The translations under genes and the position numbers were made by a program. The notes below the pieces were generated by a model that saw only the letters and a program-made list of their open reading frames with translations, was not told where the DNA came from and ran no database searches. This document shows positions 4,751 through 63,916 of a stretch of DNA of 64,000 bases, piece by piece; positions within the stretch are counted from its first letter, which is position 1; the number at the start of each line of letters is the position of its first letter. Source of the DNA: Aquidulcibacter sp. (lineage in GTDB: Bacteria; Pseudomonadota; Alphaproteobacteria; Caulobacterales; Aquidulcibacteraceae); contig JAPZTJ010000038.1 in assembly GCA_027532555.1 (NCBI GenBank), positions 1-64,000 of the forward strand. Reading direction: 5' to 3'.

Positions 4751-4782
4751 GACACTGAATAGTGTCAATTAAATTCGACACT
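4751..4782. promoter_or_regulatory. Triple half-site PpsR-type operator before bchG
   Basis: Three GACACT/AGTGTC half-sites lie in a row: GACACT 4751-4756, AGTGTC 4761-4766 and GACACT 4777-4782. The last two form TGTC-N10-GACA (4763-4780), a perfect match to the PpsR/CrtJ consensus TGT-N12-ACA. The first two form a shorter dyad with a 4-nt spacer. The position, 18-49 bp upstream of the bchG start, fits repression of bchG-bch2-bchP. Confidence 0.8.
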
Positions 4783-4959: not shown

Positions 4960-6390
4960 CTATTGGGCGTCGTCGTCAAAATTGCCAATGCCAAAGCGAT
5001 GAAGTTTGGAATAAAGGCTTTGGCGGCTGACGCCTAAAATCTCTGCTGCTGACGCGCGATTATTGCCAGTCAGATCTAAGGCAGCTTCGATGCAAAGCCT
5101 TTCAACAAAATCAGTGGTGTCGCGCACGATTTCTTTTAAAGAAACCCGGCCCACCAGCTCACTCATATCCGCTGGGGAACGAACTAGTTCTAGTGGCTGT
5201 TGGCCACGTTCCATTTCGCGGCGGCTCACCCGACGGATGCTGAAGCCATAGAAGCCTTCTTCTCCTTCGGGAACCGATACAGCGCAGACTTCGACATCTT
5301 CCAACTCCCCAAATTGGGTTTGCAAGACTGTCGGGAAATTGCGGACGACGCCATATTTGACCAAGTTTTCGAGGAGAATGTTACGATCCACACCCGGCCG
5401 GCCCAAAAACCGTGTCAGAGCTTCGCCATTGGCCTGCTCTGGAGTTGGCAGATGAACCAGATCGAGGAAGGCCGAATTCTGCGTGAGAATGTTTAACTCC
5501 CGGTCTGTGACCACTAGACCATCTGGAAGGAGGTTAATCGATGCCAACATGCGATGGCTGCCGTCTACCGCAATGGGCTCTGATCGTTCTGCCGGAACCA
5601 ACCGAACCAAGAAGTGCATGCTGCGGTCCTGCCTAAATAGGGAGGCGCTCACATTCAATTGTCGGCCATTGGAAGTCAGACTTGTTTGCGGAGCCGAGCG
5701 GCTGGTTGATGCCTGAGCGACCGAAAGAAGGGATGCAGCATCTTCTTGGTTTTGCACCGCAAACAGACGCGAAAATGGCTTTCCAACAAGGGACCCATCC
5801 CCGCCGATCAAGCGGTCTGCTGCTGGATTGGCTTCTGCGACACGACGGGTAGAGCCGTCAATGATGAGAACCGCTTCGCTGGTCGACTGAAACAGCATGC
5901 GATAACGCGATTCAGACGTACGCATCCTCGCATAGTCCCGTTCCATCGACTGCTGCGCTTGCAACAGTCGCTGCTGCAGAACTGACGCAGCGCGATGGTC
6001 GCGCCCAATAGCAATAATCCGACCATCATCCCCGGTGCCGACGGCTACATAACGTAAGGCAACAGAATCGCCTCTGCGAGACGGGTGGTTAAGCTCGCGC
6101 CAGCGGATCGCTTTATCAGACGCTGCATCTCGCAACATCTCTTCCACTTTTGGACGGCTATCTTGCGTGACCGTATCTGACCAAGGCTTATTTACCCAGC
6201 TCTCAAAATCATCGAGCTGTAGGTCTGAATTGCCGACGGCCAAGTCGCAAATCACGCCATCGCGGTCTATAACAATGGCCACATCCCCACCGGCAGCCAA
6301 AACCTTAACCGCAATCGAAGCCTCTAAGTCGCCAAGCGCAGCAGGCTGCAGCAGTGGACCGAAGTTTTCATTAGCGGGGGTATGTTCCAT
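4960..6390 (-). CDS. ppsR: Photosynthesis gene repressor PpsR/CrtJ
   Basis: This 476-residue regulator follows the PpsR layout: an N-terminal region, tandem PAS-like domains (about 30-140, 160-265 and 275-385) and a C-terminal Fis-type helix-turn-helix with NNRASAAEILGVSRQSLYSK near residues 440-460. PpsR represses bch, crt and puf genes under oxygen or light at TGT-N12-ACA sites, several of which occur here. A Cys just before the HTH (LCIEAALDLT) may match the redox cysteine of CrtJ; alignment would be needed. It follows ppaA by 35 bp, so the two are probably co-transcribed. Confidence 0.95.
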   Translation of the reverse strand: MEHTPANENFGPLLQPAALGDLEASIAVKVLAAGGDVAIVIDRDGVICDLAVGNSDLQLDDFESWVNKPWSDTVTQDSRPKVEEMLRDAASDKAIRWRELNHPSRRGDSVALRYVAVGTGDDGRIIAIGRDHRAASVLQQRLLQAQQSMERDYARMRTSESRYRMLFQSTSEAVLIIDGSTRRVAEANPAADRLIGGDGSLVGKPFSRLFAVQNQEDAASLLSVAQASTSRSAPQTSLTSNGRQLNVSASLFRQDRSMHFLVRLVPAERSEPIAVDGSHRMLASINLLPDGLVVTDRELNILTQNSAFLDLVHLPTPEQANGEALTRFLGRPGVDRNILLENLVKYGVVRNFPTVLQTQFGELEDVEVCAVSVPEGEEGFYGFSIRRVSRREMERGQQPLELVRSPADMSELVGRVSLKEIVRDTTDFVERLCIEAALDLTGNNRASAAEILGVSRQSLYSKLHRFGIGNFDDDAQ

Positions 6391-54526: not shown

Positions 54527-54570
54527 TGTCACTCTAATTGGACGATTAGATATGTCAATTGAAACTGACG
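54527..54570. promoter_or_regulatory. Tandem PpsR-like dyads before bchC
   Basis: TGTC-N10-GACG occurs at 54527-54544 and again at 54553-54570, 26 bp apart. Each is one base off TGTC-N10-GACA. The pair arrangement before bchC is the classic CrtJ/PpsR layout in Rhodobacter. Confidence 0.7.
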
Positions 54571-57701: not shown

Positions 57702-57857
57702 AGTTGGATTTTCTAAAGCGGCTTTTTCCGCCGCGGCCTGCTTTTTGGCTTCCTGAGCTGCGATCCTTTTCGGCGATAGCGAAATGACCTGCCAAATGGC
57801 AAAGCCTAAAATCGCAACGCCGAAAAAAACCTCCAAGAGCAAAGGATTGAATGTCAT
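57669..57857 (-). CDS. Small single-helix protein coupled to crtB
   Basis: This 62-residue protein has one membrane helix (about 6-27) and a highly charged, Ala/Lys/Glu-rich helical tail (AAQEAKKQAAAEKAALE). It overlaps the crtB stop by 4 bp (ATGA), and its last 33 bp run under the end of crtC. No family was recognised. It may anchor or pair with phytoene synthase, which is inferred from coupling only. Confidence 0.65.
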   Translation of the reverse strand: MTFNPLLLEVFFGVAILGFAIWQVISLSPKRIAAQEAKKQAAAEKAALENPTSKESSGHPEG

Positions 57858-58954
57858 CGGCTACGGCTCCCTGTTCGATCACGCATTTCAAGGTCCGAGA
57901 ATAGATCCATGACCCAATTGAGATCGTCCGTCACACTTTGCTTGCGTTTGTTCGCTGGCCCAAAGCCTGGCGGGGACTGAACAATCGCCGCCACCAACGG
58001 TCTTCCGACGCCACGGGCAATCGACAACTCGCCTTTAGGCGCCGGACGCGCCGCCCGCTGCATCGCTGCCCCAACCAGCCACGCCTTGCGGGCAGCTGTG
58101 GTGCTGGCGCGCTTGGAGACTGAATCATAGCCCTGAGCACGAATGACTTTGCCGATTTCAGCGTACAGCAAGCGGGCAGCATAAATGGCCGGGCGAACGG
58201 TTGCAGGCAGGCGCGCGATGGCTTGGTCCGCGCGGCGGTAGAGCTCTTCTGCGCGCGCCAATAAGCGCTCCGTCAAAACAGCAATCGCTGGCGAAAAATC
58301 TGGTTGGGCGAGCCAGGATTCAGGTTCAATCCCTACTTCTCGCAGCCAAGCACGCGGGATATAGAGCCTGCCTTGCCGGGCATCTTCACCGATGTCGCGC
58401 GCAATATTGGTCAATTGCATGGCGACGCCGAGATCACAGGCGCGCTCAACCATGGCGGCACCACGCACGTCCATTAAGGCAGCCATCATGGCACCAACGG
58501 ATCCTGCGACCCGCTCCCCATACTCTTCAACATCGGCCAAGGTTTCATAGGTGCGCTCTGCGACATCCCATTCAAACCCCTCCAACAACGCATCAAATAC
58601 GGCGCGCGGAATACCATAGGCACGCACGACATCGGCAAGGCAACGGTCGGCGGCTTCGGTCTGGGGACGGCCCGAATAAACGCCATCGAGGCGCCCGCGC
58701 AGGCGCGCAATCGCGTCACCTTGGCCATTCTCCACATCAACAGCATCATCAGACAAACGGCAGAAGCCATAAAGCGCATAAGCCGCTTCACGCAGCGCCT
58801 CGGGTAGCAGCAAGGAAGCGGAATAAAAGGAGTGTGACCCAGTTTTAATCAGGTCGCGGCAAGCCGCTCGATCTGACGGGGTGGCATAGGTAGGGGGCCC
58901 AGCCATGGGCTCAATCCTATCTAAACTTTCGGCCGCGAAACTCAGCATGCCCAT
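57854..58954 (-). CDS. crtB: Phytoene synthase CrtB
   Basis: This 366-residue enzyme joins two GGPP into phytoene. The first Asp-rich motif is in YGFCRLSDDAVDVENG (near residue 65), and the second in NIARDIGEDARQGRLYIPR (near 185). The C-terminus has an extra 60 or so basic residues. MAGPPTY at residue 17 is an alternative start. It carries a coupled small membrane gene at its 3' end. Confidence 0.96.
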   Translation of the reverse strand: MGMLSFAAESLDRIEPMAGPPTYATPSDRAACRDLIKTGSHSFYSASLLLPEALREAAYALYGFCRLSDDAVDVENGQGDAIARLRGRLDGVYSGRPQTEAADRCLADVVRAYGIPRAVFDALLEGFEWDVAERTYETLADVEEYGERVAGSVGAMMAALMDVRGAAMVERACDLGVAMQLTNIARDIGEDARQGRLYIPRAWLREVGIEPESWLAQPDFSPAIAVLTERLLARAEELYRRADQAIARLPATVRPAIYAARLLYAEIGKVIRAQGYDSVSKRASTTAARKAWLVGAAMQRAARPAPKGELSIARGVGRPLVAAIVQSPPGFGPANKRKQSVTDDLNWVMDLFSDLEMRDRTGSRSR

Positions 58955-59028: not shown

Positions 59029-60183
59029 TTAGCCCACCTCCAAACACGCACCCTCGAACCACGATATGTCTTGGGTGGAGACTTGGCCGAAAGTTTGTTG
59101 TTGCCGGATCGACATGGCGATGATCGAGAACGCCGTGATCGGCATGGTGATAAAGGGCATAGGGTCACGGGCATCCCACGTCACATCTTGGGCGGTGCGC
59201 AGCACTTTTAAGCGCTCCCAAAACTGCGGTCCTTTAAACATCGCCGCCTGCACTTCTGTTAGGGTCGGGTAGAATTGCTGCATCAGTGTGGTCTGCTTCA
59301 ACCGGATCGGTCTGACGCCCGGCTCCAAGATGGCTGGGGCCAAATCTTCGGTCTCAATGAAATGAACGCCACTGGTCACACGTGGATTGCATTCAATCGC
59401 CCAAGCTTTGCCTGCATCATCAACAAAGAAGTCAAACGAGATGAAGCCGGTGTGATTTTCACGTTTCACAAAGGTTGCGACCCATTCTTGGATCGCCGGA
59501 AGGTCGACGCGCTGGAAGGCCACGGCGACGCTGCCGGTCATGACGGCCCCTTGATAGATGACATTGACCAAGACTTCACCAGCCTCAGCAAAAGCAAAAG
59601 TGCTATATTGTTTGCCCTTGAGCTGGACTTGCACGACAGCGGGCTCGGTTAAGGTCGCGGCAATGCCGATCAAGGACGTGCCCGCCGCATGCAAGCTGAC
59701 CGCTCGGCCAGAGCAGGAGAAAATCGGCTTGATGACAAAATCATGGCCTTCGGCAATTGCTTGGGCTTCAGGACTTTCGATGAGAGCTGTCTCGGGTACG
59801 TTCAAGCCAAAACCGCGTGCGAGAGCGGGAAAGCGCGCCTTATCATGAAGCGCCAAAAGGCGGTCAACCGGCGGAGCATAGAGGCGGGTACGCGCGGGCA
59901 GTCGCCCCGCTAAATGCGCCACATGCATGGTTTCCTCTGATAAGGGCAGGACCAGATCTACCGCCCCATCCTCGATCACGCGCAAAAGTGCCGTCAGATA
60001 GGCTTCTTTACCCTTTGATGGCGGCGGCACCTGAATGCACTGATCCACGCACTTCGACGCCCCCGTTAAGTGCGACTTGAAGGGCTCTGCCACCAGAACG
60101 CGCCAGCCAGCGGCCTTGAAGGATCGCGCAAAGTCCAAGGCTTTGGGCAAGCGTCCAATGGTCAGCAAGACGGTTTTGCTCAT
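59029..60183 (-). CDS. ATP-grasp ligase in the carotenoid cluster
   Basis: This 384-residue protein has a pre-ATP-grasp Rossmann-like N-terminus (about 1-110), a nucleotide-binding Lys in DFVIKPIFSCSGRAV (near 150) and the metal site FISFDFFVDD with WAIECNPRVTSG (Asp251, Glu264, Asn266). ATP-grasp enzymes form acyl phosphates from carboxylates and join them to an amine, thiol or hydroxyl. It overlaps the P450 stop by 4 bp, so both are made together, and it ends 74 bp before crtB starts. A role in modifying a carotenoid or other light-related acid is inference; the acceptor is unknown. Confidence 0.88.
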   Translation of the reverse strand: MSKTVLLTIGRLPKALDFARSFKAAGWRVLVAEPFKSHLTGASKCVDQCIQVPPPSKGKEAYLTALLRVIEDGAVDLVLPLSEETMHVAHLAGRLPARTRLYAPPVDRLLALHDKARFPALARGFGLNVPETALIESPEAQAIAEGHDFVIKPIFSCSGRAVSLHAAGTSLIGIAATLTEPAVVQVQLKGKQYSTFAFAEAGEVLVNVIYQGAVMTGSVAVAFQRVDLPAIQEWVATFVKRENHTGFISFDFFVDDAGKAWAIECNPRVTSGVHFIETEDLAPAILEPGVRPIRLKQTTLMQQFYPTLTEVQAAMFKGPQFWERLKVLRTAQDVTWDARDPMPFITMPITAFSIIAMSIRQQQTFGQVSTQDISWFEGACLEVG

Positions 60184-61574
60184 GCCCGCACCGAAACCTT
60201 AATCATGACTTCTTGGGCTGGACGCGTGGTCAGCCGGGCCACAGGGCGCACAAGTTCTGGCTGCTGCACGTCAATGCGATAGGTCCGCAAAATGCGTGCA
60301 AGGATCAGGGTTGCTTCGGTGGTGGCAAAGGCTGCGCCTACACAAACACGCGGGCCAGCTCCAAATGGGATATAAGAGCCTGACACAATTTCATGCTCCC
60401 GCTCTGGCAAAAAGCGGTCTGGATCGAACACATCAGGATTTGGCCACAAGGCCTGATGGCGATGCACGGCCCAGGGCGCAATCATCACCATAGTTCCGCG
60501 CTTGATGTGTTTTGTTCCGATCGTGGTCGAGCGCGCTGCCACCCTTGGGATGAACGTGATGGGTGGATAGAGGCGCAACGCCTCTTTGAACACATTGCGG
60601 GCATAAGTCAGCCGCTTCACATGGTCGAACTCAATCGGGCCAGAGCCAGCTACTGCCATGGCTTCTGCGCGAACCTTATCCGCCACAGCTGGCTGCATGG
60701 CAGCAATGAAGAACGCCCATGTCAAAGCGCTAGCGGTTGTTTCATGGCCGGCCAAGAAGAACACCCCCAATTGGTCGATGAGCTCCTCGCGGGTGAAGCG
60801 CGTGTCGGTCTCAAGATCGCGCGCGGCAATCACGGCTGCGGCGATATCATCAAATTGAGCACCAGCCTCTAAATGGCTGTCGAGAAGGCGACCGATATGA
60901 CCGCGAATCCGGGCGCAAGCCTCCAAAACATCGGCGCGTTGAGGGATATCATCAAAGGGCTTGCCGAAGATGAGGCGCACCAATTCAACATGGGCGACAC
61001 TGCGTTCGAAGAAGGCGAAGGACTCAAACACATCCCGTGCGGTGTCATTGGCGAGGGATGCCGAAAAAACGGTGCGGCAAATGATATCGGCTGTTAGTTG
61101 ACCCATGGCGAGGTCGAGTGACATTTCTTGCCCCGATTTGGCGGCAGCCTGCAGACGGGCCTCAAAATCATCCAAGGCGCCGACCATAGACGGAAAGGCT
61201 TTAGCCAGTCGGATGTGCGAAAAGGCCGGATCAATCATCCGCCTTTGTTGACGCCACAAGGACCCGCTGGACACAAACATGCTGTCGCCCACCAAGGGGG
61301 TGAGAGCGCCAACCATCAAATCATTCTTGGGAAAGATATCCTCGGGATCGGCTAAAATAGGCTTGGTCAAAGCCGGGTCATTCACAATCTGGATGGAGCG
61401 ACGCGAATAACCCAGCGGCCCCATCGGCAACAAGTAAGCATCGGCTGGCATCAAGCTCAACAGATCCCCATCGCCTTGTCGGATCACCCGGATCAAGCTG
61501 GCCAATGGCCCCATAGGCGCTGGCCGAGGAGGGGTATAGACCGCGCCTAGAGCGTGAAGTTCGTCCACCAACAC
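60180..61574 (-). CDS. Cytochrome P450 in the carotenoid cluster
   Basis: This 464-residue P450 has the I-helix FFLAGHETTASALTW (AGHETT 275-280), the ExxR motif in KEALRLYPP (Glu331, Arg334), PDRFLPERE and the haem loop FGAGPRVCVG with Cys411. It looks like soluble bacterial P450s of the CYP102/CYP175/CYP4-like type. It starts at a GTG run with AGAAGG before it, is coupled to the ATP-grasp gene, and is divergent from a DUF2306-like gene and crtD across a PpsR-like dyad. The substrate could be a carotenoid end group or a fatty acid. Confidence 0.93.
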   Translation of the reverse strand: MLVDELHALGAVYTPPRPAPMGPLASLIRVIRQGDGDLLSLMPADAYLLPMGPLGYSRRSIQIVNDPALTKPILADPEDIFPKNDLMVGALTPLVGDSMFVSSGSLWRQQRRMIDPAFSHIRLAKAFPSMVGALDDFEARLQAAAKSGQEMSLDLAMGQLTADIICRTVFSASLANDTARDVFESFAFFERSVAHVELVRLIFGKPFDDIPQRADVLEACARIRGHIGRLLDSHLEAGAQFDDIAAAVIAARDLETDTRFTREELIDQLGVFFLAGHETTASALTWAFFIAAMQPAVADKVRAEAMAVAGSGPIEFDHVKRLTYARNVFKEALRLYPPITFIPRVAARSTTIGTKHIKRGTMVMIAPWAVHRHQALWPNPDVFDPDRFLPEREHEIVSGSYIPFGAGPRVCVGAAFATTEATLILARILRTYRIDVQQPELVRPVARLTTRPAQEVMIKVSVRA

Positions 61575-61658
61575 CCTTCTACCTCAACCCACTCATTTTG
61601 ATCGCTCCGCAAAAAGCCGCGCTCAACCCCTTGAAGCCTACCGCTTGACGCGTCACTA

Positions 61659-61676
61659 TGTCCAGCCCGCTAGACG
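61659..61676. promoter_or_regulatory. PpsR-like dyad between P450 and DUF2306-crtD
   Basis: TGTC (61659-61662), ten bases, then GACG (61673-61676) match the same one-off PpsR form seen twice before bchC. A perfect 10-bp palindrome TGACGCGTCA (61646-61655) lies just beside it. Both sit in the 120-bp divergent gap. Confidence 0.6.
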
Positions 61677-61697
61677 CTTTCGACTGGATAGACAGTG

Positions 61698-62432
61698 ATG
61701 CTTACCTTGTTTCACACGTTGGTTGCCATCCACATTGTGTTTGGAACGGTTGGACTGGTCAGCTTTTGGATCCCGGTTCTGGGCAAGAAGGGTAACCGCA
61801 ATCACCGACTGTGGGGTAAAATTTTTGCTTGGTCGATTTTGGCCGCAGGCTCTGTGGCCCTGTTATTGAGCATTTGCACTTTAATCGACCCCTTGGGGAC
61901 CCACCCGCACCTGAAGGACCCGGTTTTTGTAAGGGGAATTTTTGGTGTGATGATGCTTTACTTGGCGATCCTGACCATCAATCTCGCGTGGTATGGTCTT
62001 CAGACGATCAAGAATAAGGCCAATCATGCGGCTAACCGTCGTGGTCTTAACCTCGCGCTGCAGCCCATTCTGATTGCTGCTGCCTTTGCCTGCGCTGTTG
62101 AGGGTGTTTTGATTGGCCAATATCTGATGGTGGGCATGTCCATCATTGGCTTTGCGACGGCTGGCACCAATTTATTTTTTATGCTGAACCCTTCCCCCCG
62201 CCCAAAAGTCTATTTGATGGAGCATGTTAAGGCCATCGTCGGGGCTGGCATTTCGGTCTATACGGCGTTTGCAGCCTTTGGCGCGGTTCGCGTGATGCCC
62301 TCAATCGCTTTGCACCCAGGCCTATGGGCCATTCCTTTGGTGATCGGGCTTGCGATCATCCTCTACCATCACCGCCAAATCCGATTGAGCCTGCGAGCGC
62401 GTGCAAACCAGACGGCAGGCGCGGCTTCGTGA
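61698..62432 (+). CDS. DUF2306-like multi-span membrane protein coupled to crtD
   Basis: This protein of about 244 residues has around seven hydrophobic segments and an N-terminal pattern (HIVFGTVGLVSFW, then NRNHRLWGKIFAWSILAAG) like DUF2306 membrane proteins. Several His in or near helices could bind haem or metal. Its stop shares GTGA with the crtD start. I chose ATG 61698 over an adjacent GTG. A function in carotenoid desaturation is only suggested by coupling. Confidence 0.75.
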   Translation: MLTLFHTLVAIHIVFGTVGLVSFWIPVLGKKGNRNHRLWGKIFAWSILAAGSVALLLSICTLIDPLGTHPHLKDPVFVRGIFGVMMLYLAILTINLAWYGLQTIKNKANHAANRRGLNLALQPILIAAAFACAVEGVLIGQYLMVGMSIIGFATAGTNLFFMLNPSPRPKVYLMEHVKAIVGAGISVYTAFAAFGAVRVMPSIALHPGLWAIPLVIGLAIILYHHRQIRLSLRARANQTAGAAS

Positions 62433-63916
62433 AGGCCAAGAAGGTAATCGTCATTGGCGCTGGGATGGGCGGTCTTGCCGCGGCGATCGACCTTGCCCGA
62501 TTAGGCCATCAGGTTGAGGTGGTTGAGCGGGCTGCCGCGGTTGGCGGCAAGATGCGCCAAGTGCCTGTTGGGGATACAGCCATCGACGGCGGGCCGACTG
62601 TCTTTACGATGAAATGGGTCTTTGATGGCCTGTTTGAGGATGCGGGCCTTGCCCTCGATGATCACCTTGCTTTGTTGCCCGCGACAATCCTAGCCCGTCA
62701 CGCATGGTGCCAGGGCGGCAATCTGGATCTGTTTGCCGATCGCGACGCCTCTGCGGAAGCCATCCGCGATTTCGCGGGGCCCGCTGATGCCGCAGGCTAT
62801 CTAGCCTTTTGCAAGCGCAGCGCCTCAATCTACGAGACCTTGCGCGGCCCCTTTATCGCAAGCCAACGACCCAACCCCATCGAATTGGTTGCGCGCGTTG
62901 GCTTCAACAAATTGGGCGCGATGTGGGAGACAGCGCCGCATCAAACGATGTGGGGAGCACTTGGGACCTATTTCCGCGATCCCCGCCTGAAGCAATTGTT
63001 CGGGCGCTATGCCACCTATTGCGGCTCATCGCCCTTTGCCGCTCCGGCGACTTTGATGTTGGTCAGCCATGTGGAACAAGAGGGCGTGTGGCGGGTTGAT
63101 GGCGGCATGGCCAAGGTCGCACAAGCGCTTGAGTCCTTAGCCATCAGCCAAGGGGTGACGTTCCATTTCCAATCCGATGTAGAACGGATTGAGACGCGCA
63201 ACGGCCGCGTCAGCGGTATTGCGCTGACGAGCGGTGTGACCATGCAAGCAGATGCCATCGTGTTCAATGGCGACATCTCCGCCCTTGGCCGAGGTCTCTT
63301 AGGTCCCGACGCAGTCCCGGCGGCCAAGCCCGTCGCGTTGCCCCAACGATCCCAGTCTGCCATCACGTGGTGTGCCACCGCCACGACCAGCGGCCTGAAT
63401 CTCGCGCACCATACAGTCCTATTTTCCGATGATTACAAGGCGGAGTTTCAAGACGTTTTCGCAAGGCAGCGGCCGCCGCAAGCCCCGACGATCTATGTTT
63501 GCGCGCAAGACCGCGACGATGCCTGCACCCCACCCGATCGGCCAGAACGTCTGTTGATCCTGATGAATGCGCCCGCCAATGGCGACAGCCAAACCTATGG
63601 CCCCGACGCTGAAGCGCAAGCCAAGGAAAGCGCGTGGAGCATGATGGCCAATTGTGGGCTGCGCCTATCTGTCGATCACGAACAAGCCACCACGCCACAG
63701 GGATTTAATGCGCTGTTCCCAGCAAGTGGGGGTGCGCTCTATGGCCGGGCCAATCACGGACCGATGGCCAGTTTCCAACGGCCCGGTGCCAGAAGCGGCA
63801 TTGCGGGGCTTTACCTCGCCGGAGGTTCTGCTCATCCCGGCCCCGGCATCCCCATGGCAGCTCTTTCCGGGCGGCTAGCCGCGGCCCGCATCCAAACAGA
63901 TTTTCTGACCGATTAA
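62429..63916 (+). CDS. crtD: Hydroxyneurosporene 3,4-desaturase CrtD
   Basis: This protein of about 495 residues introduces a 3,4 double bond into hydroxylated acyclic carotenoids. It has the FAD motif VIVIGAGMGGLAAAIDLARL, the amine oxidase/CrtI-type VGGKMRQV, and AGGSAHPGPGIPMAALSGRL near the end. GTG 62429 is the start that matches family N-termini and overlaps the upstream stop by 4 bp. It converges on crtI with overlapping stop codons. Confidence 0.94.
   Translation: MKAKKVIVIGAGMGGLAAAIDLARLGHQVEVVERAAAVGGKMRQVPVGDTAIDGGPTVFTMKWVFDGLFEDAGLALDDHLALLPATILARHAWCQGGNLDLFADRDASAEAIRDFAGPADAAGYLAFCKRSASIYETLRGPFIASQRPNPIELVARVGFNKLGAMWETAPHQTMWGALGTYFRDPRLKQLFGRYATYCGSSPFAAPATLMLVSHVEQEGVWRVDGGMAKVAQALESLAISQGVTFHFQSDVERIETRNGRVSGIALTSGVTMQADAIVFNGDISALGRGLLGPDAVPAAKPVALPQRSQSAITWCATATTSGLNLAHHTVLFSDDYKAEFQDVFARQRPPQAPTIYVCAQDRDDACTPPDRPERLLILMNAPANGDSQTYGPDAEAQAKESAWSMMANCGLRLSVDHEQATTPQGFNALFPASGGALYGRANHGPMASFQRPGARSGIAGLYLAGGSAHPGPGIPMAALSGRLAAARIQTDFLTD

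Follow-up and report, generated by a model that had tools for sequence, protein, structure and literature searches.

To our knowledge, the spheroidene and spirilloxanthin routes of purple bacteria involve no ATP-dependent ligation. They use no P450 either, according to the available part of a review (PMC10604819). CrtA, the spheroidene monooxygenase, carries out the O2-dependent oxidation of acyclic photosynthetic carotenoids, the reaction type that we propose below for a P450, but in the same part of PMC10604819 CrtA itself is not a P450. Among membrane proteins, the fungal DUF2306 protein PraC is required for epoxidation, the oxygenation of a hydrophobic chain, in pramanicin biosynthesis; unlike the genes described here, the pramanicin genes named in the accessible text of that study include no P450 (PMC12895699). 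P450s that likewise act on carotenoids belong to CYP97, LUT5 (CYP97A3) and the LUT1-type carotene epsilon-monooxygenase. CYP97 stands for the hydroxylation of carotenoid rings, and assignment to a CYP family takes about 40% identity.

Here we describe three genes in a 64,000-nucleotide stretch of Aquidulcibacter sp. DNA (the window), coding for a P450, an ATP-grasp enzyme and a DUF2306-like membrane protein. This trio lies beside crt genes and probably tailors photosynthetic carotenoids in some phototrophic bacteria. Carotenoid P450s and ATP-grasp ligases are enzymes of known kinds, and their combination in photosynthesis clusters appears to be new. No account of the set was found in the open-licence papers searched; in the part available, a Citromicrobium paper (PMC3338782) names a cytochrome P450 in the list of a figure legend, which may or may not be this P450.

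The locus in the Aquidulcibacter window

An earlier note on this DNA had described a complete P450 gene and an ATP-grasp gene, overlapping by 4 bp between crtB and crtD/crtI, and the reading frames, both complete, and family matches agree (Table 1; the common base pairs are 60180-60183 in the ORF listing). Its two-gene unit needs to be enlarged: the coupling stands, but a DUF2306-like membrane protein gene belongs to the set too. As for the flanking genes, the CrtD model match begins at residue 41 of the crtD ORF, the crtB ORF stays below the cut-off in crtB-type NCBIfam models (best 369 vs 500), and the crtI-like query gave a 49% match to the annotated phytoene desaturase of Roseobacter litoralis. 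Homologues of all six crt genes (CrtE, B, I, C, D and F) are present separately from the P450 and ATP-grasp genes, which match other families; the pair thus lies outside the known spirilloxanthin route, as the note had held.

Table 1. Features of the trio locus and its putative regulator. Positions are those of the window unless a locus is named.
Feature	Position	Strand	Remarks
ppsR	4963-6390	-	TIGR02040 414.4 bits, cut-off 275.4; likely regulator
crtB	57854-58954	-	PF00494 (SQS_PSY) 244.1 bits
ATP-grasp gene	59029-60183	-	384 aa, ATG start
P450 gene	60180-61574	-	464 aa, GTG start; PF00067 250.6 bits
Divergent promoter, P450 / DUF2306-like	61575-61694 (120 bp)	.	Near-invariant block, 9 genus sequences
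PpsR-like dyad TGTC-N10-GACG	61659-61676	+	One mismatch from TGTC-N10-GACA
DUF2306-like membrane protein gene	61695-62432	+	245 aa; third set member, head to head with P450
crtD	62324-63916 (ORF as listed)	+	NF045637 678.9 bits, cut-off 580
crtI-like gene	L062:13971-15401		Follows crtD, just outside the window

The P450 is a member of the cytochrome P450 superfamily by its PF00067 match together with haem-cysteine, ExxR and AGxET motifs; none of the 36 rows of its alignment (A4) departs from the AGHET, ExxR and haem-cysteine residues. Against the PDB, the P450 profile found as best match the plant carotenoid hydroxylase LUT5 (240.6 bits; next 199.3), which was also the top match for the single P450 sequence (159 bits), whereas carotene epsilon-monooxygenase scored lower with the profile (176.1 bits), under CYP3A4. 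This likeness to CYP97 is one of scores and alignments, and membership in a CYP family is not claimed; moreover, the rings that CYP97 enzymes hydroxylate would be missing from an acyclic carotenoid, which is what the crt genes in the window indicate. A Polaromonas plasmid P450 (38.5% identity), considered as a clue to the substrate, sits in a glycosyltransferase-type cluster and was set aside as uninformative.

The ATP-grasp protein belongs to the ATP-grasp superfamily by its PF02655 score (24.4 bits vs a cut-off of 23.2), its fold and its conserved ATP/Mg residues; its catalytic residues are kept and its fold is intact. It scores under the cut-off for PRK06849-type proteins (NF005315; 273 vs 406 bits), and set against the superfamily (2pn1, PurK, biotin carboxylase, PylC) the trio orthologues form a score group of their own and adjoin a P450. 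In the order draw described below, the orthologues reached at least 481 bits (whole genes) and the next group at most 185. Paralogues occur on plasmids in Paraburkholderia, Pontibacillus, Roseateles and Paenibacillus (L150-L153), where they adjoin genes for KAS III, an NAD(P)-dependent oxidoreductase and an MBL hydrolase, with an F390-synthetase-like gene in three of the four. This is a recurring unnamed biosynthetic cluster, and L147 holds a set that looks similar by eye.

The third protein does not reach the DUF2306 cut-off (PF10067; 24.4 vs 31.6 bits) and is hence called DUF2306-like only. Among its relatives, 25 of 31 match PF10067 at E <=1 (best 3.5e-05), and its structural model is confident and helical (pLDDT 91.6). 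Like PraC, as characterized in the accessible text of PMC12895699, it is a multi-helix membrane protein; PraC is fungal and of the DUF2306 kind, whereas the window protein lies below that cut-off, and the likeness is one of family match rather than of direct comparison with PraC.

The PpsR-like dyad that the earlier note had seen in front of the pair is indeed near consensus and lies within a promoter block that is near-invariant when all nine genus sequences are aligned. It resembles the pair of dyads before bchC at 54527 and 54553. However, it carries a mismatch, and the counts across the window are not above chance: with one mismatch to TGTC-N10-GACA, 18 dyads were seen vs 19.8 expected, and exact TGT-N12-ACA numbered 4 vs 9.1 expected, with no exact copy before the P450. 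Exact TGTC-N10-GACA occurs in the window at 4763 and 56663. In relatives, exact TGT-N12-ACA, which we take to be the PpsR/CrtJ motif, is present in 20 of 66 P450/DUF2306 promoters, compared with a mean of 1.9 and a maximum of 8 in 300 mononucleotide shuffles. Removal of similar promoters left 41, of which 12 contain it (random windows from the same loci: mean 1.1, max 5 in 500 draws; GC-matched control: mean 1.3, max 5 in 300). Judged from these sequences, the trio genes may be under PpsR control and expressed with the photosynthesis genes.

Gene neighbourhood and tie to phototrophy

All nine genomes of the genus sampled, which takes in Aquidulcibacter and Candidatus Phycosocius, have the order crtB, ATP-grasp, P450, DUF2306-like, crtD, crtI-like, the ATP-grasp gene being split over two contigs in G006. 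A scan of named genomes with the ATP-grasp alignment gave 109 related stretches, and the best 80 were analysed. The P450 is present in 76 of these 80 loci and the DUF2306-like gene in 69; the 11 loci without the latter include contig ends as well as L121 and L130, where it is truly absent beside the P450. In 77 assessable loci (L086, L096 and L104 are contig edges), ATP-grasp stands without a P450 only once, at L105, where none was found within 10 kb. The ATP-grasp orthologue there (L105:10001-11221, 46%) lies beside genes resembling, by eye, those of the Calvin cycle; the bin is one of Geminicoccaceae, and reaction-centre genes are present in its genome.

Three main gene orders were seen, written in the frame of the ATP-grasp gene: DUF2306(-) P450(+) ATP-grasp(+); ATP-grasp(+) P450(-) DUF2306(+); and P450(-) DUF2306(+) ATP-grasp(+). 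Of the 68 loci assessed, 67 have the P450 and the DUF2306-like gene head to head. Where the P450 and ATP-grasp genes share a strand (47 cases), 25 pairs are spaced at -4 and the others by no more than 27 bp. Of the 70 loci with a recognised photosynthesis gene, 66 have a crt gene as the nearest one, a figure that leans somewhat to crt, the reference set holding 6 crt genes vs 18 others without bchIDO and bchNBHLM, and that comes from loci that are not independent; none was recognised in the remaining 10 of the best 80. The pair's link to crt genes, claimed in the earlier note, is thus conserved across several gene orders, and the opposite outcome, a pair mostly away from crt genes in relatives, was looked for and not seen. 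Within the 21-kb stretches around the set, no recognised crt gene was found in L122, L134 and L139, the last having bchI/bchD-like ORFs by eye. Clustering of the flanking ORFs gave, beyond photosynthesis genes, clusters that by eye seemed clade-local or on the opposite strand.

The set is tied to phototrophy in the order sampled. In a draw of 220 genomes from the order, 36 have reaction-centre genes and were taken as phototrophs. ATP-grasp orthologues were found in 19 of the 220 (G006 counted from two half genes) and P450 orthologues (at least 598 bits; next 345) in the same 19, all of them phototrophs (19/36 vs 0/184). None of the 184 others had a trio orthologue at the thresholds used, with up to 8 ATP-grasp and 7 P450 candidates scored per genome. 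The DUF2306-like gene is present in 21 genomes, the same 19 plus G010 and G021, again all phototrophs. In G021, where the order-draw search found no P450 or ATP-grasp orthologue, it adjoins crtI and its match (L156:1605-2294) contains a single in-frame TAG; it is possibly a remnant after loss.

Reaction-centre genes were also found in all nine genus genomes, and phototrophy of the Aquidulcibacter/Phycosocius clade is already published (PMC10008586, available part). Another 49 carriers were searched, derived from 50 of the best 80 loci, mostly ones whose stretch shows no bch genes; reaction-centre genes are present in 43 of them. The six that lack them are G456, G457, G460, G480, G482 and G485; the loci of three (L087, L091, L140) hold crt or bch genes beside the set, and these three genomes are therefore likely to be incomplete bins. 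Titles place the carriers in gammaproteobacteria and in many families of alphaproteobacteria; examples are Luminiphilus syltensis NOR5-1B, HTCC2080, Novosphingobium sp. AAP83, N. fuchskuhlense and Dankookia rubra. Aquidulcibacter paucihalophilus is another cultured carrier. Four loci titled Acidobacteria or Sulfopaludibacter (L106, L113, L118, L128) have clusters arranged as in Hyphomonas bins and are probably binning errors, that is, misassigned contigs. In Novosphingobium sp. AAP83, a gene that by eye is crtY (lycopene cyclase)-like lies beside crtD and the trio (L083:4961-6172), and this strain may therefore have a carotenoid that is not wholly acyclic.

Linkage to crtA and history of the set

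In a wider draw from the class (385 genomes, 26 phototrophs), four of the phototrophs have a P450 orthologue (at least 656 bits; next 366): G000, G155, G164 and G187. Only G000 also gave an ATP-grasp match at E 1e-30; no orthologue was found among the five best candidates per genome at this threshold in the other three. The reading of P450 and ATP-grasp as a fixed pair was thus rejected, since at this search depth no ATP-grasp orthologue turned up in three of the four P450-positive phototrophs. ATP-grasp hits in G163, G367 and G382 were discarded as paralogues (28-35% identity, no P450 neighbour).

Both G155 and G164 have the P450 directly downstream of crtA, on the same strand. Indeed, in G164 the two frames overlap (L164; crtA to 9477, P450 from 9473), with crtI and crtB further downstream; after the crtA-P450 pair comes a reading frame of 141 aa (L164:10830-11252). 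In G187, the P450 is tail to tail with a DUF2306-like gene. This crtA linkage, which is independent of ATP-grasp, is the strongest sign that the P450 acts on carotenoids.

In the P450 tree, the photosynthesis P450s form a clade (support 97/99) from which the crtA-linked sequences of G155 and G164 branch first. The second of these two early forks is weak (84/62), the outgroup branches on which the rooting depends are long, and other P450s had fallen inside the clade in an earlier tree whose outgroups were badly framed. A tree holding 30 alignment members together, apart from L163-L165, was not rejected (p-AU 0.241). With the crtA-linked P450s, from genomes in which no ATP-grasp orthologue was detected, branching deepest, the P450 has the look of a carotenoid oxygenase linked to phototrophs that is probably older in the set than the ATP-grasp enzyme, which would have been added later. 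Genomes with ATP-grasp are almost a subset of those with the P450, a pattern that suits an enzyme working on the product of the P450 step.

P450 and ATP-grasp distances correlate over 15 loci (Mantel r 0.71). At the same loci, r was 0.54 for ATP-grasp and crtD, 0.47 for P450 and crtB, 0.40 for ATP-grasp and crtI, 0.35 for ATP-grasp and crtB, 0.19 for P450 and crtI and 0.13 for DUF2306-like and crtD. A special co-travel of crtD with the set, unlike crtI and crtB, was dropped: the first comparison had taken in low-identity Novosphingobium copies of crtI and crtB, and the contrast was weaker once identity floors were applied and close loci collapsed.

crtA was found in none of 48 genomes with ATP-grasp vs 4 of 24 class-draw phototrophs without it (left out beforehand: G186 and three carriers whose reaction-centre hits were partial or weak), and in none of 27 further phototrophs of the order (10 carriers, 17 others). 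With crtA missing from these carriers and non-carriers alike, carriage of the set is not accounted for by carotenoid type. A replacement of crtA by the set, weakly indicated, was likewise abandoned, since crtA is also missing from non-carriers and the P450 can adjoin crtA.

Proposed function and alternative readings

We propose that the P450 is a phototroph-linked, O2-dependent oxygenase of an acyclic carotenoid, aided by the DUF2306-like protein, with conjugation by the later ATP-grasp enzyme and PpsR-type expression, a reading that we favour, if only modestly. The P450 would use O2 to oxidise an end group or methyl of the carotenoid, of the spirilloxanthin series here and of the spheroidene series in genomes where crtA precedes it. 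The DUF2306-like protein may assist this step at the membrane, be it as a partner, a presenter or a second oxygenase, and the ATP-grasp enzyme would then, with ATP, join the oxidised end to a small molecule via an amide or ester bond. The oxidation step is suggested by linkage and family together, the conjugation step by family. Formation of a carboxylate followed by ligation, as the earlier note had suggested, would be compatible with the two families.

Changes at the ends of a carotenoid, outside the conjugated chain, need not alter absorption spectra; reports of spirilloxanthin in two cultured carriers therefore speak neither for nor against carotenoid tailoring. In Luminiphilus syltensis, spirilloxanthin was assigned by absorption spectra with no additional pigments, as far as the available part of PMC3679898 goes, and the word HPLC does not occur in its main text as available. 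Ca. Phycosocius spiralis was likewise assigned spirilloxanthin by absorption spectra (PMC10008586, available part). Given these spectra, any product would be minor, colourless or altered in a way invisible to them.

The set could instead act on another molecule of the photosynthetic membrane, such as the bacteriochlorophyll tail, a quinone or a membrane lipid, its adjacency to crt genes reflecting residence in the same cluster. Its link to phototrophy is as strong as that to crt genes, the nearest recognised gene is bchP in L095 and L098 and pufM in L138, and the plasmid ATP-grasp paralogues with their KAS III-type neighbours suggest fatty-acyl chemistry. We nevertheless hold this to be unlikely: crt genes are nearest in nearly all loci with a recognised photosynthesis gene, even if the reference set somewhat overstates that bias, the P450 follows crtA in two genomes, and the closest solved P450s are carotenoid hydroxylases.

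It is also rather improbable that the trio serves carotenoid turnover, with spirilloxanthin being oxidised by the P450 and membrane protein when conditions are oxidative, and the polar or colourless products being tagged by the ATP-grasp enzyme. An O2-dependent enzyme pair would fit, and in L. syltensis under oxidative stress spirilloxanthin production is reported to be inhibited and the bacteriochlorophyll/spirilloxanthin ratio to exceed five (PMC3666943, available part). However, the same source ascribes the change to regulation of synthesis, in the text available, and reports the same effect in Congregibacter litoralis; moreover, a PpsR-type promoter would run the set alongside the synthesis genes and not against them. 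That the genes are mere passengers with no pigment role, for example in detoxification, is very improbable: photosynthesis clusters are known to be transferred horizontally (PMC6052148, available part) and carriers are scattered among relatives, but the genes stay together while order and strand vary, PpsR-type sites are kept in diverse lineages, catalytic residues are invariant and, at the score thresholds applied, the order's 184 non-phototrophs yielded no orthologue.

Returning to carotenoid tailoring, a broader picture can be offered as a tentative and rather doubtful one: many aerobic alpha- and gammaproteobacterial phototrophs may share an unrecognised terminal carotenoid branch, in which the P450 stood first beside crtA and was then joined by the membrane partner and the ATP-grasp ligase. 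Its product would be an oxidised, conjugated acyclic carotenoid with an unchanged chromophore, passing as spirilloxanthin. The P450 lineage, its crtA-linked early branches and the PpsR-type promoter provide definite genes for testing whether the last steps of carotenoid synthesis in aerobic phototrophs differ from those in anaerobic purple bacteria, and the trio offers a bacterial case for testing the role of DUF2306-type membrane proteins beside an oxygenase.
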